A stretch of DNA of 51,891 bases from assembly GCA_022321325.1 (NCBI GenBank), contig JAKOEO010000016.1, positions 1 through 51,891 of the forward strand, in the 5' to 3' direction. The translations under genes were made by a program, and so were the position numbers. Below, piece by piece: positions 22,926 to 33,982 of the stretch. Numbering within the stretch: position 1 is the stretch's first letter; every line of letters begins with the position of its first letter. The notes beneath the pieces are model-generated. The model saw only the letters and a program-made list of their open reading frames with translations. It made no database searches and was not told the DNA's origin. This DNA is from Candidatus Magnetominusculus sp. LBB02 (GTDB taxonomy: Bacteria; Nitrospirota; Thermodesulfovibrionia; Thermodesulfovibrionales; Magnetobacteriaceae).

Positions 22926-22949
22926 ATGGATACGGTTGATAAAACATGA
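22926..22949 (+). CDS. Seven-codon upstream ORF overlapping the kinase start
   Basis: ATG to TGA encodes MDTVDKT. A GGGAGAG sequence lies 8 bases before its ATG, while the kinase ATG at 22946 has no ribosome site of its own; the small ORF's stop overlaps the kinase start as ATGA. It probably delivers ribosomes to the kinase start by coupling. Confidence 0.4.
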   Translation: MDTVDKT

Positions 22950-24724
22950 AAACCACAAGGAATATTGAAGCGGCAAGGATGCTTACCCATCTTGCCCCCT
23001 CATCCATAGCAGCCGGGCCGTCAAGATACTTGCGCCTGAAGATAAGCATTGTCGTTATCCTTGTTACGATTTCCATTGTGTTTCTTTTAATCGTTTTTTT
23101 TGTGAGCCATTTTTGGCTCCAACGATTTCTCAATGAAGAGACACAGAATCAGACTCGATGGCAGATGGAAAACACAAAAAACTCAATAGAGTTTTTTATC
23201 AATCTGAAGGTCTCAGCCCTGCGTTTTCTTGCCTCAGGGTACACATTCGAACAACTCCTTGACCAAAAAACCCTGCACTATCTGTTCAGTAATTTCAAGA
23301 AAGACTTCGGTGACACAGTTGACCTTGGCGTCATAGACTCCATGGGCATAATGCGCTCCTACGCCGGCCCGTATAACTTAAAGGACAAGAACTACTCAGA
23401 CCAAAACTGGTTTAAGCAGGTTGAGGTGCAAGACTCATGCGTAAGCGAGGTATTCATGGGCTACAGGGGAAATCCACATTTTGCCGTTGCTGTCAAAACC
23501 ACCATACCAGAGACCAACGGGTTTTGGATACTGCGCGCTACCGTGGATATCAAGACCCTGCAGTGGCTTATATCCACAATAAATCTCAAGGTCAATGACG
23601 ACGCCTTTATCGTCACCCCAAAGGGAGTTCTGCAAACACCGTCACGATTTCACGGCGATGTGCTAAAATTTTCCGATATAAAAATGCCGTATCTTCAGCA
23701 TGGCGTCAACGTTTCAGAACAAGAGCTTCACGACGGTACGCCTTTTATCTACGCCTATACTTATATCAAGGATTCCCCGTGGATACTGTCAGCCGTCATA
23801 AGGTCTAAGGCGCAGACGCCCACCGCTAAGTCTTTTCTTAATCAACTAATTGCAATATTTGTTATAAGCATCCTGATTATCATCGTGATAACCGTTAAAA
23901 TGGCGCATTCTATGGTGAACTGGATAAGGGAGGCCGACGAAAAAAGACAGGAGGCCCTTTCAGAGATTGAACACTCGGGGAAGCTGGCCTCCATAGGGCG
24001 GCTTGCCGCCGGAGTTGCCCATGAGATAAACAATCCTCTGTCAATAATCGGGCAGCGCGCCGGCCTGATAAAAGATATTTTGGAAATGGCCGAAAGCGGC
24101 GAAGATGGATTTAATGCCATGATAGACGAAATGAAAAACAAAGAAAAGTTCATCGGCCTGACAAACGGCATTCTCGACGCGGTAAACCGCTGCCGCACAA
24201 TTACGCACAGGCTGCTGGGATTTGCCCGCCGTATGGACGCCACATATGAACTGATAGACCTGAATGAGACACTCTTAGAGGTGCTTAGCTTTCTGGACAA
24301 AGAGATACTCTTCAGAGACATAAAACTAGTGCGCAACCTTGCCTCTGACCTGCCTAAGATAAAGACCGACAAAGGACAGGTTCAGCAGGTCTTTCTAAAC
24401 ATAATAAACAATGCCGTTGACGCCGTCTCAAGAGAAGGCGTCATAGAGCTGTCATCAGAGCAAAAGGACCCACAAACTGTCACAGTCTTTATCAGCGACA
24501 ACGGGCAGGGCATTCCAAAGTCCCGCATTAAACATATATTTGAACCATTCTATACTACAAAGGAAAAGGACAAGGGCACAGGATTAGGTCTTTTCATCTC
24601 ATATGGAATTATCAAAAAACTGGGCGGCGCCATTTCCGTAGAGAGCGAACCAGGCAAGGGGACGACATTCATTATAGAACTGCCATTATTTTCACATGGG
24701 GAGGAGGCCAATGCCGCCGGTTAA
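22946..24724 (+). CDS. Cache-type sensor histidine kinase
   Basis: A 592-residue kinase. TM1 is about residues 33-52; a large periplasmic double-Cache-like sensor (about 55-300) has the segments DLGVIDSMGIMRSYAGPY and NYSDQNWFKQV typical of dCache ligand domains; TM2 is about 293-315. The H-box is LAAGVAHEINNPLSIIG, the N-box NIINNAVDAV, then DNGQGIP, EPFYTTKEKDKGTGLGL and GTTFIIELP. There is no HAMP, and the family resembles ZraS/NtrB-like kinases. It overlaps the next receiver gene by 14 bases. The likely ligand is a small anion or carboxylate given the transporters downstream, but this is inference. Confidence 0.92.
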   Translation: MKTTRNIEAARMLTHLAPSSIAAGPSRYLRLKISIVVILVTISIVFLLIVFFVSHFWLQRFLNEETQNQTRWQMENTKNSIEFFINLKVSALRFLASGYTFEQLLDQKTLHYLFSNFKKDFGDTVDLGVIDSMGIMRSYAGPYNLKDKNYSDQNWFKQVEVQDSCVSEVFMGYRGNPHFAVAVKTTIPETNGFWILRATVDIKTLQWLISTINLKVNDDAFIVTPKGVLQTPSRFHGDVLKFSDIKMPYLQHGVNVSEQELHDGTPFIYAYTYIKDSPWILSAVIRSKAQTPTAKSFLNQLIAIFVISILIIIVITVKMAHSMVNWIREADEKRQEALSEIEHSGKLASIGRLAAGVAHEINNPLSIIGQRAGLIKDILEMAESGEDGFNAMIDEMKNKEKFIGLTNGILDAVNRCRTITHRLLGFARRMDATYELIDLNETLLEVLSFLDKEILFRDIKLVRNLASDLPKIKTDKGQVQQVFLNIINNAVDAVSREGVIELSSEQKDPQTVTVFISDNGQGIPKSRIKHIFEPFYTTKEKDKGTGLGLFISYGIIKKLGGAISVESEPGKGTTFIIELPLFSHGEEANAAG

Positions 24725-25082
24725 GCTCTTAATCATTGACGACGAGGAGGACTACGCATCGGCCCTTGTCGAGCGCCTGAATTTGAGAAGGTTTGACGCC
24801 GCCGCCGTATATAACGCAAAAGACGCACTGGCCGCTGTAGAGACCCACCGTCCCGGCGTTATCCTGCTTGATCTTTTTATGCCCGGCATGGAGGCCAAAG
24901 ACATGATAAAGACCTTAAAAGACGCCATACCCGATGTTGAGATTATCATTGTCTCAGGGCATGCCGACCCCGCTTTGGACATCATAAAGTCGGCCTTTGA
25001 TTACATAATTAAACCGATTGAAATTAATGATTTAATTGAAAAGGTCAACATGGCCGTTTCAAAACAAAAAGGAGCCGTATGA
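24711..25082 (+). CDS. Stand-alone receiver protein
   Basis: A 123-residue single receiver domain: LLIIDDEEDY, phospho-acceptor Asp54 (VILLDLFMPGM), IIVSGH and IIKPIE with the conserved Lys. The start at 24711 follows GGAGG closely; an in-frame GTG/ATG further upstream lacks support. It overlaps the kinase gene by 14 bases and the following gene by 4 (ATGA), so the three are translationally coupled. Having no output domain, it probably relays phosphate or binds a partner. Confidence 0.9.
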   Translation: MPPVKLLIIDDEEDYASALVERLNLRRFDAAAVYNAKDALAAVETHRPGVILLDLFMPGMEAKDMIKTLKDAIPDVEIIIVSGHADPALDIIKSAFDYIIKPIEINDLIEKVNMAVSKQKGAV

Positions 25083-25693: not shown

Positions 25694-26134
25694 CTACCAA
25701 CCCTTGGTATCCATTATGCCCTGTATCTTCTGTCTTAACTTCTCATCAACGATTACGGCTTTTTTATTCTTGGCGCCGCCTATTTTTTCAAGCAGGACAT
25801 TCATGTCAACGGGTTTTTCCATGAAATCCACAGCCCCTCCCTTCATTGCCTCAACGCCTTTTTCCAATGTCGCATGTCCGGTCAGGATGATTACCTGAAG
25901 GTCGGGATTGTCCTGCTTAATATGATGAAGGACCTCAATTCCGTCCATCCCCGGCATTGAAAGGTCAAGCACAATGGCGTCGAAGTCCTTTTCGTTGATA
26001 ATTTTCAGGGCATCGGCGCCACGCGTCGTGCTGTCTATTCGCAGCCCCCTTGCCTGGAGCCTTTTTGACAGCATTTCAAGAAACTGCTCCTCGTCGTCCA
26101 CTATCAGTACGCTTGCGTTTAGCTCCTCTGCCAT
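25694..26134 (-). CDS. Stand-alone receiver protein with C-terminal helix
   Basis: A 146-residue receiver: VLIVDDEEQF, Asp57 (AIVLDLSMPGMDG), VIILTGHAT, MEKPVD. The ATG at 26134 is chosen because AGGAGG lies before it; the frame extends to a TTG at 26140. A short basic C-terminal tail (KAVIVDEKLRQKIQGIMD) follows the domain. It points towards the orphan kinase-like gene (6-base gap, convergent) and is divergent from the next receiver gene. Confidence 0.9.
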   Translation of the reverse strand: MAEELNASVLIVDDEEQFLEMLSKRLQARGLRIDSTTRGADALKIINEKDFDAIVLDLSMPGMDGIEVLHHIKQDNPDLQVIILTGHATLEKGVEAMKGGAVDFMEKPVDMNVLLEKIGGAKNKKAVIVDEKLRQKIQGIMDTKGW

Positions 26135-26172
26135 CACCAAACCTCCTTAGACGCCGTACACCTCGTCGCTAT

Positions 26173-26445: not shown

Positions 26446-26820
26446 ATGAAACAACTGAACATACTGCTGGCAGACGACGAAAAGGACTTCGTGGAAGTGT
26501 TGTCAGAACGAATGAAAATGAGAGGGTTCAATGTTGCAATTGCCTTTGACGGGCAAGAGGCCGTTGACAGCCTCAAACAACAGATACCTGATGTGCTGGT
26601 GCTCGATATGAAAATGCCGCGCAAAAACGGCATAGATGTTATGAGATGGTTAAATATTCAAAAAATTGAGCTGCCTGTACTGATACTAACCGGCTATAGC
26701 TCTGAGACGGAAGAGGATGAGGCATGGAAACTGGGAGTTTTCGACATACTGCGAAAACCACCTGAAATAGATGTACTTTCTAAGGCAATAAAAGAGGCAT
26801 ACTTAAAGAAGGCCCTGTAG
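26446..26820 (+). CDS. Stand-alone receiver protein heading the TauE operon
   Basis: A 124-residue receiver: ILLADDEKDF, Asp54 (VLVLDMKMPRKNG), LILTGYSSE, and RKPPE with the conserved Lys. GGAG precedes the ATG. It lies 34 bases before the TauE/SafE gene on the same strand, so it is likely co-transcribed and may act on the transporter, as it has no DNA-binding part. Confidence 0.9.
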   Translation: MKQLNILLADDEKDFVEVLSERMKMRGFNVAIAFDGQEAVDSLKQQIPDVLVLDMKMPRKNGIDVMRWLNIQKIELPVLILTGYSSETEEDEAWKLGVFDILRKPPEIDVLSKAIKEAYLKKAL

Positions 26821-26854: not shown

Positions 26855-28102
26855 ATGCATTTTTTCAAAGGGTTGTACGAGTTTTTTAAAAGCGCCTCCA
26901 TAGCCCATGCCCAATGGGATTACGAGGTATCTATGAGCATTCTTAGAAACAGGAAGAAGATGCTCTGGATTATCATCGCCATACTGCCCATATTGCTTGT
27001 GGCTATGGCGGAGGCCGGCAACATGTTAGGGGCAAAGACGGCATATGCCCCAGCCTTTTATTCCACAAAGATTTTTGTAGTTTCAATCGCCATCGGCCTT
27101 GCTGCCGGGCTGATTACGGGCTGCATTGGGGCTGGTGGAGGATTTATCATTACCCCTGCGCTGATGGCCGCAGGAGTTAAGGGAATACTTGCCGTAGGGA
27201 CTGATCTTTTTCACATCTTTGCTAAGGCGATTATGGGTACCACTGTGCACAAAAAACTTGGAAATGTCTCTGTAAAACTGGCCGTTGCGTTTCTTGTAGG
27301 GTCAACCGGCGGCGCACTCATCGGTGGATTTATCAACAAGGGGCTGTACGACTATGACCCGCTTTTAAGCGAGGCGTTTATAAGCCTGATATATGCCGCG
27401 CTGCTTGGGTTTCTGGGGTTTTATTCACTTATTGACTTTCTCAGGTCAAGAAAGGGTGCAGACACAGGCGACGCACATGGCGGGACAGCCGCGGCACCGG
27501 CTGTTACGATAAAAGTTCAGGCTGTGAACATTCCTCCTATGATAACCTTTGACGAGGACTATGTGCCCGGCGGAAGGAAAATATCAGGCGTCATAGTTGC
27601 GGCAGGCGGCGTCATCGTAGGCATAATGGCCGCTATAATGGGCGTTGGCGGCGGGTTTATCACGTTTCCAATGTTTGTTTACATCTTTGGCGTTTCTTCG
27701 ATGACCACAGTCGGCACTGACATCTTACAGATAATATTTACCGCCGGCTTTGCGGCGATTACACAGTATGCAATCTATGGATATGTGTTTTACACGCTTG
27801 CAATGGGGATGCTGCTTGGCTCGCTGATAGGCATTCAGGTCGGGGCCATGACCACGAAGGTCGTCAAGGGGATTCATATCAGGGGATTTTATGCTATATC
27901 CATACTTGCTGGGTTTATTAACAGGGTTGCGACACTGCCGAAAAAGTTGACCGAACTTGAAGTGGTAAACATACCCAAGGGGGTAAGCAACGGCATAGAA
28001 ACCTCCGGAAATGTAATCTTCTGGGTCGTGGTGGGCTTTTTTGCCATATGGATATTCAGCAAGTTCTTTGGAAATATGAAGAAATTAAAAGAGGGGGCAT
28101 AA
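26855..28102 (+). CDS. TauE/SafE-family anion permease
   Basis: A 415-residue permease with about nine hydrophobic helices, longer than the usual 250-300 because of an N-terminal extension with one helix and a cytoplasmic insert (about 195-245). Both halves carry the family repeat: AAGLITGCIGAGGGFIITPALMAAG and MAAIMGVGGGFITFPMFVYIFG, seen here as GCIGAGGGF and AIMGVGGGF. Members of this family export sulfite, sulfoacetate or related sulfur anions, or take up thiosulfate-type compounds. GGGAGG precedes the ATG. The next gene starts 3 bases after the stop, and the second half of the operon is that small membrane protein. Substrate not determined. Confidence 0.9.
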   Translation: MHFFKGLYEFFKSASIAHAQWDYEVSMSILRNRKKMLWIIIAILPILLVAMAEAGNMLGAKTAYAPAFYSTKIFVVSIAIGLAAGLITGCIGAGGGFIITPALMAAGVKGILAVGTDLFHIFAKAIMGTTVHKKLGNVSVKLAVAFLVGSTGGALIGGFINKGLYDYDPLLSEAFISLIYAALLGFLGFYSLIDFLRSRKGADTGDAHGGTAAAPAVTIKVQAVNIPPMITFDEDYVPGGRKISGVIVAAGGVIVGIMAAIMGVGGGFITFPMFVYIFGVSSMTTVGTDILQIIFTAGFAAITQYAIYGYVFYTLAMGMLLGSLIGIQVGAMTTKVVKGIHIRGFYAISILAGFINRVATLPKKLTELEVVNIPKGVSNGIETSGNVIFWVVVGFFAIWIFSKFFGNMKKLKEGA

Positions 28103-28105
28103 GAT

Positions 28106-28819
28106 ATGTTGATAGAGAATAAAAAGACTTTTTCATTAGGCCTTTTATATGGCGTATCGTTTTTTGCGGTATTGGCATTGATATTTTCGCCAATATTTGG
28201 CGACGGCAGAAATGGGCTTGTATTTTCTGACGATATGTTTAATAAACTTTCCAAGGGGTCTTCATATTTTATCCCTAAGATAATGAAAGGCAACGAGAAA
28301 AACATGGGCAAACAGTTCTCTGTCACCATATCGCTTGACAAGCCGGAGGTTGCCGAGAAAGCCGCAGCTCAGTTTAAAAAGGCGGGGAGCGAGGTAGTGT
28401 TGGACTCACAAACCCTAAAGATAACCGGAGACCTCGGCAAGACCCTTGCGGTTATACTACAAGACTCTGACGCGATGTTTAACAATAACTCCGGCAAATT
28501 AAAGACCAACTACGGCTATGACGGCAAAGAGGCGCTTAACTACTGGTGGCAGGCGCTTTCCAAGATGGACAAGGCGCTAAAAAAAGACGGCAAAATAAAG
28601 GAATCTAACGAGGTTGGCACAGTAATGAAAAAGGCCGTCGAACCGGCGTATAACTTTTACGGGATAGAAGCCCAGCAGGTCTCAGACAAGATAGGCGTCA
28701 TGTCCGGGCTGCTGGTATTTTACGTAGCCTATACGATGTGGTGGGGGTTTGCGATATATTTCATGTTTGAGGGGCTTGGGCTTTCGATGAAAAAGGCCAA
28801 GGTAAAGAAAGAGGTATAG
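28106..28819 (+). CDS. Membrane protein of unknown function coupled to the TauE gene
   Basis: A 237-residue protein with one TM near the N-terminus (about 9-28) and one near the C-terminus (about 197-222), leaving about 165 residues on one face, probably periplasmic. The region KQFSVTISLDKPEVAEKAAAQFKKAGSEV looks like a small alpha/beta domain. It starts 3 bases after tauE. I recall proteins of this type beside TauE genes in sulfate reducers but know of no function; an accessory subunit is plausible. Confidence 0.8.
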   Translation: MLIENKKTFSLGLLYGVSFFAVLALIFSPIFGDGRNGLVFSDDMFNKLSKGSSYFIPKIMKGNEKNMGKQFSVTISLDKPEVAEKAAAQFKKAGSEVVLDSQTLKITGDLGKTLAVILQDSDAMFNNNSGKLKTNYGYDGKEALNYWWQALSKMDKALKKDGKIKESNEVGTVMKKAVEPAYNFYGIEAQQVSDKIGVMSGLLVFYVAYTMWWGFAIYFMFEGLGLSMKKAKVKKEV

Positions 28820-28827
28820 AAATGCAA

Positions 28828-28871
28828 GGCCGGCGCTGTCTAATTAGTTATACGCATTCCCAGCGCCGGCC
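28828..28871. terminator. Hairpin between convergent genes
   Basis: A perfect 11-base GC-rich stem, GGCCGGCGCTG with its complement, around a 22-base loop; the right arm lies inside the last codons of the SLC13 gene. There is no T-run. It likely ends transcription in both directions. Confidence 0.45.
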
Positions 28872-30354
28872 ATATAAACCAGACAGCCGCCGCTAAAATA
28901 AATAATAAAACGACGCTCAACACCGCACCCTTAACAAAGAATTCACGGGCGGTAAACTGCTTCGATTCGAAGGCGATTGCGTTTGCGGCAGAGCTTCTGA
29001 TAAGTAAAAACGGCATCGCCGAAGAAACGGAAATGGTAAAGAAAACGGCCTCAGGCGTAACGCCGAAGTATTTAGACATAAGCAGCCCCACTGGCATGAT
29101 AAGCGCCACAGCGGCAGCGTTTGTCAGCACATTGGAACAAATAAACGCCACAACGCCAAGCAGCATGACAAAGGTAAACCAATGGAGTTTTACTGCCATC
29201 GCGGCACATCCTGCGGCAATCCACGCAGATGCCCCCGTATCCCACAGGCAATAGCCTATGCTGATTGCCCCGCCAAAAAACAATATAATATTCCACGGCA
29301 CATCCTCAAGGTGTTTAATCTCCATCAGCTTGAAAATAAAAATAAGCGCAGGGCATATCATCAACAGGGCTGCCTTGTCTAATCTTTCCAGCGTTGGAAT
29401 GAGTGAACAGAGCAGCAGCAGTATAATGATAACCGCCAATATGAAAATTGTCAGAACCTCCTTCTGTGACAATGGCCCAAGCTCGGCATAAAGTTCTTTA
29501 AACTTATTGCTCAATCCGCTTAGAGATTTCCTGTTCGGCCTGAAAAAAACCGCCATAAAAATCCAAATAGACAGTATCGTTACCCAGCCAATCACAAACA
29601 TATATTTCGAATAACAGGCAAATGAAATATCCCTCTGAACAACCTCTTTGAAAATCGCAATAGATAAGACCGCCCGTGGGGCGCTAAACAGTGTGAAGAT
29701 ACTTCCTGCACCGGCTGAAAATGCCATGCCCATAAACAGGCCCTTTCCAAACCTCGTCGGCACATCCTCGCGTCTGTAAAATGAATAAATCGCCCATATC
29801 AATGGGAATATTGCCGCAGCGGACGACGTATTTGACATAAAGTGAGATAAAAAGGCCATAACAAAAAATGTCCCGCCGTATATCATTAATGTATTTTCGC
29901 CAATAATGGACAGGATTTTATAGGCAGCCCGCCTTGTCAGCCCCGTCCCGGCAAAGACCATCCCCATGAGTATCGAGGCAAAGATAAACACCACAGCAGG
30001 GTCCATGTAATCATTAAAAACCCTTTTAGCGTCCCGTATACTGAATAGCGCCTGAAGCGACCCCATGATAAGGGCCGTAATGCCCGCTGGCAGCGCCTCA
30101 AAAAACCACCATATCGAGGCCAACAAAAACACAGCCAGAGCGCCCTTGCCCTCCCTGGTTAAGGGAAACCTCACCCCTGCCGGGTCAACCATATCGGGCA
30201 GCCCCGGCATATAATAGACCACGAAAAAGGCTGCCATGCCTAATATGATATAGGCTGCCCTTTTATAGTCAGTCCTTGCCTTTGGCCGGGAAAACCCCAG
30301 TGTCTGCGCTGATTTTGAATACCCTGTAGGGGCGCCTGATATCTTTTGTGGCAT
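28840..30354 (-). CDS. SLC13/DASS-type sodium-coupled anion transporter
   Basis: A 504-residue membrane protein with about a dozen helices. Two copies of the Na+ and substrate SNT-type motif are visible: SHFMSNTSSAAAIFPLI and CSNVLTNAAAVALIMPVG, in inverted-repeat halves as in VcINDY. The substrates of the family are sulfate or dicarboxylates. The start of the protein (about 1-35) is cytoplasmic and rich in basic residues. It follows the CBS-pair gene by 6 bases on the same strand, so that protein may gate it. It lies convergent to the TauE operon, which suggests one membrane pathway for import and export of related anions. Confidence 0.9.
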   Translation of the reverse strand: MPQKISGAPTGYSKSAQTLGFSRPKARTDYKRAAYIILGMAAFFVVYYMPGLPDMVDPAGVRFPLTREGKGALAVFLLASIWWFFEALPAGITALIMGSLQALFSIRDAKRVFNDYMDPAVVFIFASILMGMVFAGTGLTRRAAYKILSIIGENTLMIYGGTFFVMAFLSHFMSNTSSAAAIFPLIWAIYSFYRREDVPTRFGKGLFMGMAFSAGAGSIFTLFSAPRAVLSIAIFKEVVQRDISFACYSKYMFVIGWVTILSIWIFMAVFFRPNRKSLSGLSNKFKELYAELGPLSQKEVLTIFILAVIIILLLLCSLIPTLERLDKAALLMICPALIFIFKLMEIKHLEDVPWNIILFFGGAISIGYCLWDTGASAWIAAGCAAMAVKLHWFTFVMLLGVVAFICSNVLTNAAAVALIMPVGLLMSKYFGVTPEAVFFTISVSSAMPFLLIRSSAANAIAFESKQFTAREFFVKGAVLSVVLLFILAAAVWFIWPALGMRITN

Positions 30355-30360
30355 AGTCCT

Positions 30361-30864
30361 TTACGCAATACCCCCTGAAAACTCATTAAATATATCTGAC
30401 AGCATTATTAGCCCTACTAACTTTCTTTTGTCTTCCAGCACGGGCAGCAAAAACAGGTCGTTTTGCAGCATTGTATAAGCGGCCTTTGCCAGATGGTCGT
30501 CAGTACCGGCGAAATGCTCTATGGGATAGAGAATATCGCTTACCGGTTTTTGTACCAGTTCTTTATTGGACATGTCAAACATCGTGTCCCAAACAAGGGA
30601 CAGGGCAATGTCTCCTTCGTGGCCGGGCTGTGAAGACATTTTAAGAAACACCGGCTCTAATCCCTTGAGTATCTCTTTTATCCCAAGCGTGCCTATAAGA
30701 TGATATTTCTCCTCCAATACCAGAACAACAATCTGATGCGGCGCCTTCTCAAGACCGGCGCTTTTTATTATCCCTATGGCCTGCCGTATTGTAAACCAAT
30801 AGGGAATGTGCGGGAACTCAGATATATCTGTCATCAGGTCTTTGACTTTTCTTTCGCTGGACAT
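30361..30864 (-). CDS. CBS-domain pair protein
   Basis: A 167-residue protein starting at the ATG at 30864 (GGAGG before it); an in-frame TTG at 30885 lacks one. Two CBS units can be seen: VKDLMTDISEFPHIPYWFTI to YHLIGTLGIKEIL, and VSDILYPIEHFAGTDDHLAK to KLVGLIMLSDIF. CBS pairs bind adenine nucleotides and sense energy state. It is the first gene of a two-gene operon with the anion transporter and is divergent from the PEP-synthase-like gene. Confidence 0.88.
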   Translation of the reverse strand: MSSERKVKDLMTDISEFPHIPYWFTIRQAIGIIKSAGLEKAPHQIVVLVLEEKYHLIGTLGIKEILKGLEPVFLKMSSQPGHEGDIALSLVWDTMFDMSNKELVQKPVSDILYPIEHFAGTDDHLAKAAYTMLQNDLFLLPVLEDKRKLVGLIMLSDIFNEFSGGIA

Positions 30865-30916
30865 TCGGCCTCCACATATTGCCAAAGTTGGCTATAAATA
30901 TTATCATACAATATAG

Positions 30917-30929: not shown

Positions 30930-33506
30930 GTGGGATTCTTTCAAAAAATATTAGATAAATTCTCCGGCGCCCCGGCAGATACCGGCAACGCCGCCGAAAA
31001 AGAGATGTTTACACAGAAATACTCCGCATTTCAGGCGCTTCTCGGCGCTAACAACGCCATACTTATGACAATGGCCGATATGGAGGACAAACTCTCAGGC
31101 GAATACCTTATTGACAGGCAGTATATTGTCCAAAACGCCGCAGCCATATCAGCCAGCGTAAAAGACGTTATTGACAGATTAAATGAGATTGCAGACGGCA
31201 GATACGCAGAGCTTTACGAACGATACCGGCAGATAAGCACTGGCGTAGAAGAGGCGTTTATCAGGAGGCGCCCTGTTTCTGACGGCAGCCTTACTGTCTC
31301 ATTTGACGCCTTAAACAGGACAATGGCCGACTTGGCAGGAGGTAAAAACGCCAATCTTGGGCAGATGAGAAATGTCGTTTCCGTCCCTGTTCCCAGAGGC
31401 TTTGCCATCACCTCAACGGCTTATATACGCTTTATGCAGCATAACGGGTTTCTCGATAAGATAAACCAGCGTCTAAGCGGCTTGTCGGTAGATAATATGG
31501 AGGCGCTAAGGACGGCAAGCAAAGAGATAAAGGAACTGATACTTAATGCGGAAATCCCGCCCGATATGCAGACAGCCATCACAGAGACTTATGATGGCGT
31601 TTTCAATGGGCACGACATACGCGTATCAATCAGAAGCAGCGCTGTGGAAGAGGATGACGAGTTCAGCTTCGCCGGCCAGTATTCCACATATCTGAACGTC
31701 AGCAAAGACGACATCCCTGTAAAATATAAGGCCGTCATAGCAAGCCTGTTTTCAGACAATGCGATCTTCTATTATAAGACAAAAGGATTCAAAGAAAGCG
31801 ACATGGCTATGGCCGTAGGCGTAGTGGAGATGATCAATGCAAGGGCGGGCGGCGTCATGTATTCAAACGACCCTAACGACCCCGCCATCCACAACATAAT
31901 AATAAACGCCGCATGGGGGCTTGGCACAACTATCGTTGACGGCACTGCCTCAGCACAGACATATACGCTGGCCAAAGAACCGCAACTGCAGATCATCTCA
32001 AGAAATATACCTCACCAGTCAGCCATGGCTGTCTGTAATGACTCTGGCAGCATAGACGACGTTCAAACGCCGCAGGCTATGCACGAGGCGGCCTCACTTT
32101 CTGACGCAGAGATAATGGAGCTGTCCAAATACGCACAAATACTTGAGCGGCATTTCGGGCTGCCACAGGATATTGAGTGGGCAGTTGACCAAAGTGGACA
32201 ATTATTCTTCCTGCAAACAAGACCGCTGCACATTTATACACATGAACCCTCGCCCCATGTGCCTACGGACATAAAAGGACATAAACGGCTTATAGAAAAG
32301 GGAGTTGTCACCTGTAAAGGCGTAGGACACGGCAAGGCATTTATCATAAGAAGAGAAGATGATTTGTTTGATTTCCCTGAAGGAGGCGTCCTCATAGCCA
32401 GAACTACCTCGCCCCGCTATGTAACCGTAATGAACAAGGCGGCGGCGATAGTAACAAACATTGGCGGGGCAACAGGGCACATGGCCTCACTGGCAAGGGA
32501 ATATCGGCTGCCTACGCTGCTCGATACAGAAATTGCCACCTCGGTAATCAGCCACGGGCAGGAGATAACTGTTGACGCGGTAAACGGCTATGTCTATGAC
32601 GGCTATGTGAGAGAGCTGATAGACAATTATGAAAACAAACCAAATCCGTTTAAAGATACACTGCTCTTCAGGATATTGTCTCAGGCGCTAAAATGGATAG
32701 TGCCGCTAAACCTCATCCACCCTGAGACAGAAGAGTTCTGCCCTAAAAACTGTGCCACCTATCACGACATCACCAGGTTTGCCCATGAGAAGGCCATGCA
32801 GCACATGTTTTCAATAACCGACATTGCGGCGGTACACTCAGGGTATGGCGCTGTCAGGATGGTTACCGGCCTTCCCATAGACTTATATGTTATTGACCTT
32901 GGGGGCGGCATTGACGGCATCCCTAAAAGGATAAACCCCGAACATATAACCTCAATGCCGTTTAACGCATTTTTCAGCGGACTTAACGCCATGCCGTGGC
33001 CGCAGGGCAGACCGCTCGATGTTGGCGGTTTTATGGGCATGGTAGCTAATTCGGCCACAATGAGCGAGGCACAGATGGTGGAGATGGCAAAGTGCAGCTT
33101 TACGTTTCTTTCAAAAAACTACATGAATTTCTCGATAAGACTTGGCTATCACCTGTCACTGGTCGAGGCATATGTCAGCGATAATTTGAATGACAATTAT
33201 ATTAAATTTCATTTTAACGGCGGCGGGGCGCAGTTGGACAGGCGCATACGCCGGGTCAGCCTTATTGCCGAGATACTCAGAGAGATGGATTTTGACTCTA
33301 TTATTGTTACGGGCGACGTAATTGACGCGCGCCTCTCAAAATACAAGAGGCAGTTTATTGAACAGAAGCTCACCATTATGGGCAAACTAACGGTTTACAC
33401 CAAGCAGCTGGACATGGTCATGTACAACGACTCAGTAACTGACCACTATAAGGCTGAATTCATAAAAGACCATATTGCAGGGTCTGTCAGGCAGCAGCAG
33501 GGGTAA
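30930..33506 (+). CDS. PEP-synthase-like ATP-grasp/phospho-His protein with novel C-terminal domain
   Basis: An 858-residue protein from the GTG at 30930; a TTG at 30879 would extend it through a promoter-like AT-rich stretch and is rejected. Residues about 10-110 are a helical lead-in. An ATP-grasp domain follows (LAGGKNANLGQM, VSIRSSAVEEDDEFSFAGQY, EWAVDQSGQLFFLQTRPL), as in PEP synthase and pyruvate phosphate dikinase. Then comes the swivelling phospho-His domain with TNIGGATGHMASLARE. The PEP/pyruvate TIM barrel is missing; instead there are about 250 residues (from IHPETEEFCPKNCATYHD to the end) that I do not recognise. It may therefore phosphorylate an unusual acceptor. It overlaps the J-protein gene by one base. 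Confidence 0.82.
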   Translation: MGFFQKILDKFSGAPADTGNAAEKEMFTQKYSAFQALLGANNAILMTMADMEDKLSGEYLIDRQYIVQNAAAISASVKDVIDRLNEIADGRYAELYERYRQISTGVEEAFIRRRPVSDGSLTVSFDALNRTMADLAGGKNANLGQMRNVVSVPVPRGFAITSTAYIRFMQHNGFLDKINQRLSGLSVDNMEALRTASKEIKELILNAEIPPDMQTAITETYDGVFNGHDIRVSIRSSAVEEDDEFSFAGQYSTYLNVSKDDIPVKYKAVIASLFSDNAIFYYKTKGFKESDMAMAVGVVEMINARAGGVMYSNDPNDPAIHNIIINAAWGLGTTIVDGTASAQTYTLAKEPQLQIISRNIPHQSAMAVCNDSGSIDDVQTPQAMHEAASLSDAEIMELSKYAQILERHFGLPQDIEWAVDQSGQLFFLQTRPLHIYTHEPSPHVPTDIKGHKRLIEKGVVTCKGVGHGKAFIIRREDDLFDFPEGGVLIARTTSPRYVTVMNKAAAIVTNIGGATGHMASLAREYRLPTLLDTEIATSVISHGQEITVDAVNGYVYDGYVRELIDNYENKPNPFKDTLLFRILSQALKWIVPLNLIHPETEEFCPKNCATYHDITRFAHEKAMQHMFSITDIAAVHSGYGAVRMVTGLPIDLYVIDLGGGIDGIPKRINPEHITSMPFNAFFSGLNAMPWPQGRPLDVGGFMGMVANSATMSEAQMVEMAKCSFTFLSKNYMNFSIRLGYHLSLVEAYVSDNLNDNYIKFHFNGGGAQLDRRIRRVSLIAEILREMDFDSIIVTGDVIDARLSKYKRQFIEQKLTIMGKLTVYTKQLDMVMYNDSVTDHYKAEFIKDHIAGSVRQQQG

Positions 33507-33982
33507 TGGCAATAATTCTAAGCGGCATATTCGCGGCCTTGCTAATCGGCAGGCTGGTCAGGCTTGCGCTGGTTAGGTTAAAGATTATCAAAGGCGGCGC
33601 CAATAGCGTTAACGATATTGTACTGACCTATGTTATCACGTTTGTAGTGATATCGTTAATCGCCAGATGGCAGGCGCGGCTGTTTATGCCTGGTGTGGCC
33701 GCCATGATTTTATATGACATAGCAATGCTTAAACTGTCCTCTTCGATGAGGGCCGGCACGCAGTACCGCGCTGAGGCGTCAGATGACCCTTATGCTGTGC
33801 TGGGCGTTCATGAGAACGACTCCACTGAAAAGATCAGGAAGGTATATCGAACACTCCAGCAGACATACCATCCCGACAAACACTCCGCCGATTCCACGCA
33901 GGCGTCCATAGAGCAAAAGACCGAAAAAATTAAACAAATCAACGCGGCCTTCGACTGGATAATGAAACACCGCGGCATGTGA
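33506..33982 (+). CDS. Membrane-anchored DnaJ-domain protein
   Basis: A 158-residue protein with an N-terminal membrane region (two or three helices within about 1-78) and a C-terminal J domain (about 93-155). The J domain has DPYAVLGVHENDSTEKIRKV, TYHPDKH with the HPD tripeptide that stimulates DnaK ATPase, and IKQINAAFDWIM. The start overlaps the stop of the PEP-synthase-like gene by one base (TAATG), so the two are coupled; the J protein may bring DnaK to a membrane complex that includes that enzyme. Confidence 0.88.
   Translation: MAIILSGIFAALLIGRLVRLALVRLKIIKGGANSVNDIVLTYVITFVVISLIARWQARLFMPGVAAMILYDIAMLKLSSSMRAGTQYRAEASDDPYAVLGVHENDSTEKIRKVYRTLQQTYHPDKHSADSTQASIEQKTEKIKQINAAFDWIMKHRGM

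Follow-up and report, generated by a model that had tools for sequence, protein, structure and literature searches.

A PEP-synthase-like protein of Nitrospirota with an unrecognised C-terminal domain, encoded near free receivers and anion transporters

Results

The locus and its PEP-synthase-like gene

We examined a 51,891-nucleotide stretch of the Candidatus Magnetominusculus sp. LBB02 genome (contig JAKOEO010000016.1, forward strand; hereafter the window), and focus on a gene encoding an 858-residue protein related to phosphoenolpyruvate (PEP) synthase and pyruvate, phosphate dikinase (PPDK). The protein joins an intact catalytic half to a C-terminal domain that no family search recognised, and genes for its relatives recur near receiver-only response regulators, histidine kinases and anion transporters (Table 1). 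A TTG at 30879 is a possible alternative start upstream. The GTG at 30930 is likelier, because relatives at loci L004 and L007 have ATG at the same position (MGFFQKI...); no obvious ribosome-binding site was seen upstream of this GTG on inspection.

Table 1. Features of the window, with degenerate family remnants at three further loci
Feature	Position	Strand	Basis
PPDK/PEP-synthase-like protein, 858 aa, GTG start	30930..33506	+	translation; start agrees with close relatives
N-terminal helical domain, residues 1-118	30930..31283	+	no Pfam match; model helices 18-56, 63-87, 95-110
ATP-grasp domain, residues 119-446	31284..32267	+	PF01326; structural match to PEP synthase 2ols
Swivelling phospho-His domain, residues 449-565	32274..32624	+	PF00391; structural matches to pyruvate kinase extra domain and enzyme I
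Codon of putative phospho-acceptor His517 (GGATGH)	32478..32480	+	aligns with 'TCH' of 2ols (phmmer)
Unrecognised C-terminal domain, residues 572-858	32643..33503	+	conservation, null family searches, structure models
Membrane J-domain protein	33506..33982	+	PF00226, E 5.4e-12; one-base overlap TAATG
CBS-domain protein, divergent neighbour	30361..30885	-	PF00571; recurrent neighbour
DASS/SLC13-type anion symporter	28840..30354	-	PF00939
Unrecognised 237-aa membrane protein (mem8), next to TauE	28106..28819	+	no Pfam match
TauE/SafE (TSUP) transporter	26855..28102	+	PF01925, E 1.5e-37
Receiver-only response regulator	26446..26820	+	PF00072, E 2.5e-24
Receiver-only response regulator	25694..26140	-	PF00072, E 9.9e-32
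Receiver-only response regulator	24696..25082	+	PF00072, E 2.9e-19
Sensor histidine kinase	22946..24724	+	Pfam HATPase_c, HisKA; dCache under its cut-off
Degenerate ATP-grasp remnant with decayed C-terminal domain, no swivel, beside TauE	L142:8324-10024, L143:8550-10250, L144:8899-10746

The Pfam scan placed PPDK_N (PF01326) at residues 134-446 (E 2e-94) and the PEP-utilizers mobile domain (PF00391) at residues 482-553 (E 2.4e-19), with no further Pfam domain in the protein at E values up to 1. The two best-scoring NCBIfam PEP synthase models fell within residues 121-577, far under their cut-offs; PEP_synth, covering residues 124-577, scored 378.5 bits against a cut-off of 739.75, and the rifampin phosphotransferase model RIF_Ptrans_rph scored 242.6 bits against 999. 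The full-length AlphaFold2 model, with a mean predicted local distance difference test score (pLDDT) of 82.5, superposed on PEP synthase 2ols over model residues 120-559 (Z 38.1, root-mean-square deviation (rmsd) 11.5, 392 residues aligned), and the structural matches listed for it were filled by the catalytic domains.

An unrecognised C-terminal domain

The 287 C-terminal residues (572-858) matched no Pfam family up to E 10, in a scan whose filters drop most weak matches. In individual scans of 55 diverse C-terminal domains of the family (E 0.1), each Pfam or NCBIfam family had a match to one of them at most, and the PF02896 barrel was absent from the families matched by any. Sequence profiles built from 32 and from 55 C-terminal domains found nothing in the Protein Data Bank (PDB) better than E 0.2, and a Foldseek search of the C-terminal model against the PDB gave nothing better than E 0.14. 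An earlier note on this DNA had proposed that unfamiliar residues replace the PEP barrel; the Pfam, NCBIfam and PDB sequence searches bear this out.

In the model, the chain after residue 720 forms four strands and a helix, then two more strands and a pair of long helices (b-b-b-b-a-b-b-a-a), a predicted fold that is not a TIM barrel. A plain PEP-utilising barrel, the outcome that the same note had set against its own proposal, is seen neither in this order nor in hhalign comparisons of the domain with the barrel of the PPDK encoded elsewhere in the same genome (probability 1.3% and 3.4%). We considered whether the domain is a barrel remnant, since 'CRTEH' of PPDK can be aligned with 'CATYHD', and rejected this at those probabilities. 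The related suggestion of a genuine pyruvate, water dikinase, with a PEP domain that is no longer recognisable after divergence, could draw on that alignment and on the position of the domain, directly after the swivel as in PEP synthase. We consider it very unlikely given the predicted fold, the presence of a PPDK with a PF02896 barrel in the genome, and the fact that many genomes have several family matches, frequently close to signalling genes.

Comparisons by VIA-align gave four candidate folds, all scoring in the range of common arrangements and rejected: the MotA DNA-binding domain (Z 6.2, rmsd 3.9, 99 aligned), coproporphyrinogen oxidase (Z 6.0, rmsd 4.0, 132 aligned), red chlorophyll catabolite reductase (Z 6.0, rmsd 3.5, 133 aligned) and PcyA (Z 5.2, rmsd 5.3, 141 aligned). 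Because of these scores, and because the domain modelled alone has a mean pLDDT of 71, we neither assign a fold nor claim a new one.

The domain is strongly conserved. In an alignment of 95 members, window included, the near-invariant residues are H612, D613, R616, H619, H741, N756, G764, G765, R775 and D828: H612, D613, G764 and D828 are each present in 95/95 rows, R616, H619, N756 and R775 each in 94/95, and H741 in 93/95. The 'Cys pair' pointed out in the earlier note is not a family feature, as C608 is retained in 90/95 rows and position 604 usually holds K, T, S or R. Three members of 1062-1065 residues (L038:2615-5803, L074:7239-10427 and L076:9257-12454) carry an extra C-terminal stretch, which in the L038 protein weakly resembles a lectin-like or 3-keto-disaccharide hydrolase domain (E 3.7e-5, which misses the curated cut-off).

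Catalytic residues and degenerate copies

The catalytic residues are nearly as well kept across the 95 rows (K139 in 93, R235 in 92, E416 in 93, Q429 in 92, R431 in 92 and H517 in 94). With 51 further members added, the full set is present in 138/146, including the window's protein. Together with the Pfam matches, this complete active site confirms that the ATP-grasp and swivelling phospho-His domains are intact, as the earlier note had stated.

The eight members with an incomplete set fall into distinct kinds. L080 and L081 are without the ATP-grasp domain, and L081 also has Tyr in place of the phospho-His; L065, in the open reading frame (ORF) as called, consists of the swivel and C-terminal domain. 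In L102, L103, L104, L105 and L139, the Lys, Glu, Gln and His are lost together, and at each of these loci the gene order is dead copy, then histidine kinase, then receiver, then intact copy. These five dead copies, like L065 and L080, retain each of the nine C-terminal residues tested. Retention in the five would follow from a separate role for the C-terminal domain.

Distribution of the family

The window's C-terminal domain, used as a query, has matches in 85/295 Nitrospirota genomes and 53/135 genera. A 32-sequence profile has matches in 78/198 genomes of a second phylum, that of the L038 genome, with up to 12 in a single genome; this family probably does not serve central carbon metabolism. 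In one search, the nearest relatives are in Nitrospirota metagenome-assembled genomes (84-85% in the C-terminal domain), followed by Candidatus Magnetominusculus xianensis at 79%. A search of plasmid records for the domain gave none. The window's genome, 91.6% complete, has one family copy. It also encodes, on contig C80 and about 11 kb from the PPDK gene, a 1262-residue protein (L002:340-4125) with PPDK_N in mid-protein and no further Pfam domain at E 0.01.

Recurrent neighbours

Neighbours were counted around 146 family genes of at least 400 residues in 116 loci, among which related genomes and tandem copies are not independent of each other. A receiver gene lies within 300 bp of 70/146 family genes, on the same strand in 47 cases and on the opposite strand only in 23, against 1/168 control ORFs; for kinases the corresponding figures are 30/146 and 9/168. 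The controls lie at least 4 kb off in the same loci and were called mechanically, so that some may not be genes. Most of the receiver ORFs counted within 300 bp (69 of 73) have 120-190 residues, too short for an added output domain. Within 5 kb of the 146 genes, response regulators occur near 111, histidine kinases near 109, TauE near 59 and DASS near 36.

TauE was also compared with random placement. Of 37 places in 17 genomes, 16 have a TauE gene within 10 kb, where random placement gave 1.66 on average and at most 8 in 3000 draws; each genome was taken as one contig, and five genome sizes were rounded. The 37 places are 44 rows minus the fragmented window-genome row and six second halves of split matches, and include three degenerate places; the TauE rows for the window genome and the split second halves were dropped as well.

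In many Nitrospirota relatives, the gene faces a set that encodes GntR, CBS and DASS proteins, a carbonic anhydrase of the LCIB type and a CitMHS/NhaD-like transporter. Its other flank holds, on the opposite strand, genes for a response regulator, a histidine kinase, Usp, the 237-residue membrane protein and TauE. Receivers, kinases and TauE accompany other paralogues and the members from the second phylum as well, there mainly in the same orientation. The cluster of the 237-residue protein occurs in 22 loci, usually near TauE, and this protein may be a transporter subunit. An LCIB-type beta carbonic anhydrase, supported by Pfam in L014 only (L014:2629-3387) and with its cluster present in 12 other loci, recurs together with a CitMHS/NhaD-like transporter in the divergent DASS/CBS cluster, which hints at a coupling to bicarbonate or sodium. 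A DUF4881 protein (L119:2530-3123) lies between TauE and an unrecognised membrane protein in a related transporter cluster.

Phosphohistidine is the usual phosphate donor to receivers. The adjacent receivers could accordingly suggest that the protein is an alternative protein kinase, passing phosphate from ATP through His517 to receivers and so feeding the two-component system. We find this improbable, as a histidine kinase within 5 kb of 109/146 genes means that the receivers already have likely donors, and no receiver is fused to the family protein among the members labelled.

The J-protein gene immediately downstream in the window does overlap the PEP-synthase-like gene by one base, as the earlier note reported, and a chaperone-associated complex had been proposed from this overlap. 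A tblastn search of loci through L141 found the J-protein only in two loci of the window's own genome, although at least 600 bp of downstream DNA was available for 94/98 other family genes or fragments in an earlier locus set and at least 3.9 kb for six close relatives. The J-protein is probably not part of the module, and we regard the proposed complex as having almost no chance of being correct.

A probable counterpart in Desulfovibrio

Excerpts of Korte et al. 2014 (PMC4001038) describe a gene cluster, present in D. vulgaris and D. alaskensis, in which mutation confers resistance to nitrate. It encodes a TauE protein (DVU0251), a hypothetical protein (DVU0250), PtxB (DVU0249), a histidine kinase (DVU0248), a receiver (DVU0247, 360 bp), a protein with PPDK_N and mobile domains (DVU0246) and a phosphatase (DVU0245). 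Isolated insertion mutants in DVU0246, DVU0247, DVU0250 and DVU0251 grew equally with or without 100 mM nitrate, and a DVU0245 mutant was inhibited by nitrate; the authors suggested a leaky thiosulfate transporter. DVU0246 is not dealt with in the excerpts of a randomly barcoded transposon sequencing study of D. vulgaris (PMC10102598), and putative thiosulfate transporters are only cited in those of PMC9723548.

At L125, a single strand carries TauE, a PtxB-like PF12974 protein, a histidine kinase, a receiver, a protein of this family that has the C-terminal domain, and a dual-specificity (DSP) phosphatase, in the published order; the kinase was called by a cluster hidden Markov model and the other five genes by Pfam. 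L129 has the published order too, as judged from labels, lengths and the starts of the sequences. In L131 and L133 the stretch examined contains no TauE, and L137 has TauE, kinase, receiver and family member; across L129, L131, L133 and L137, the Pfam check covered two L131 genes (the PF12974 protein and the phosphatase). In the window, TauE, histidine kinase and response regulators are present, and PtxB and phosphatase genes were not seen in a scan that left several flanking ORFs outside. From gene order, DVU0246 is probably a member of this family. Polarity is a poor explanation of the DVU0246 effect, since only the phosphatase lies downstream in the L125 run, if the direction is the same in D. 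vulgaris.

Discussion

We favour the reading, to which we give a probability of roughly 40%, that this is an ATP-driven, receiver-linked phosphohistidine protein whose C-terminal domain serves to control anion transporters, where the step of control is the part that we infer. A sensor kinase would signal through a free receiver to the PPDK-like protein, which would phosphorylate its own His517 from ATP. The swivel domain might then bring the phosphate to the C-terminal domain or alter its shape; with a ligand or a partner bound, the C-terminal domain would set the activity of the neighbouring transporter. Phosphotransfer to a partner other than PEP, which the earlier note raised in the form of a protein or metabolite substrate, stands as a plausible, putative role.

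In the excerpted mutant data from Desulfovibrio, transporter, receiver and PPDK-like protein behave as one pathway. As the 360-bp receiver is also too short to include a DNA-binding domain, post-translational control of the transporter is the simplest explanation. A broader and more tentative proposal, which we hold to be possible though rather doubtful, is that these genes represent a separate signalling design: kinases and free receivers would act on a switch derived from PEP synthase, sometimes accompanied by a dead copy, and the C-terminal domain would gate TSUP or DASS transporters post-translationally.

Several observations weigh against transporter control by this route. The window's own receivers are 4-6 kb from the gene for the 858-residue protein, 76/146 family genes lack a receiver within 300 bp, and 87/146 lack TauE within 5 kb. 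These fractions, like the other neighbour counts given here, are not natural frequencies, because loci were picked to cover divergent, tandem and transporter-linked copies. The opposite-strand-only receivers, which make these genes neighbours rather than operons, include 13/13 receiver cases in the first locus set, with the window's closest relatives. Further difficulties come from Desulfovibrio, where, in the same published excerpts, the DVU0248 kinase is a pseudogene in D. vulgaris, the D. alaskensis phosphatase mutant (Dde_0605) has positive fitness, unlike that of DVU0245, and the pooled DVU0250 result is opposite to that of the isolated mutant. The published length of DVU0246, 2235 bp, is also about 119 codons under that of the L125 protein. 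Finally, L081 has lost 2/9 of the tested C-terminal residues (R616 and H619), and the remnants L142-144, outside the 146-member count and lacking the swivel domain, have lost at least 5/9. Such partial decay fits residues that work with the phosphate.

The dead copies therefore argue both ways: the C-terminal domain is kept without catalysis in some, and is part-decayed in two kinds of copy without the phospho-His. The decay speaks for the main rival in our analysis, a small-molecule dikinase like rifampin phosphotransferase (RPH) or HpeHI, in which the C-terminal domain would bind an imported anion or metabolite and the swivel His would phosphorylate it. The ATP-grasp and swivel machinery is shared with those enzymes, the highly conserved polar C-terminal residues resemble a small-molecule site, the linked transporters could deliver the substrate, and exchange of the third domain is known in this group from excerpts of two studies (PMC12167813, PMC4844700). 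We nevertheless consider this rival somewhat unlikely. The strongest link found is to free receivers, all nine tested C-terminal residues persist in five dead copies, and, in the published Desulfovibrio data as excerpted, protection from nitrate by loss of the enzyme, as by loss of the transporter, fits control of uptake better.

The catalytic half of the protein is well known, and we found no description of the C-terminal domain, or of its link to receivers and anion transporters, in the open-licence literature that was available in part. Genes resembling PEP synthase or PPDK are readily assigned to central carbon metabolism when met in Nitrospirota or sulfate reducers. If control of anion uptake is correct, it would provide a mechanism for the unexplained nitrate-resistance cluster of Desulfovibrio, a matter of interest for souring control, and a further mode of action for two-component receivers that lack DNA-binding domains. 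With its dead copies and the published mutants, the family can be tested directly.

Comparison with known systems

PEP synthase (PpsA, 2ols) has the same order of ATP-grasp and swivel His domains, and the active-site residues align. The protein described here differs in that it has no PEP-utilizers_C match (PF02896) and no barrel in its model, has an extra N-terminal helical domain, and is often encoded near two-component and transport genes. Similarly, pyruvate, phosphate dikinase (1dik) has related ATP-grasp and swivel domains, whereas our protein lacks the C-terminal barrel. Enzyme I of the phosphotransferase system uses a PEP barrel as its phosphate source and has no ATP-grasp domain; the present protein has the ATP-grasp domain and not the barrel.

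The phenolic kinases PpsAB, with RPH and HpeHI, are alike in combining ATP-grasp and swivel His domains for a substrate other than PEP (excerpts of PMC4844700 and PMC12167813). As described there, their swivel domain is C-terminal, and the RPH His motif lies at most 50 residues from the C-terminus. In our protein His517 of 858 is followed by the 287-residue domain, a domain order different from that of RPH. A further close counterpart is the pair DVU0246/Dde_0604, as described in the Desulfovibrio excerpts. These proteins differ in their shorter published length and in that no C-terminal domain is named in their description, and they share both the PPDK_N and mobile domains and the gene order found around the L125 member.

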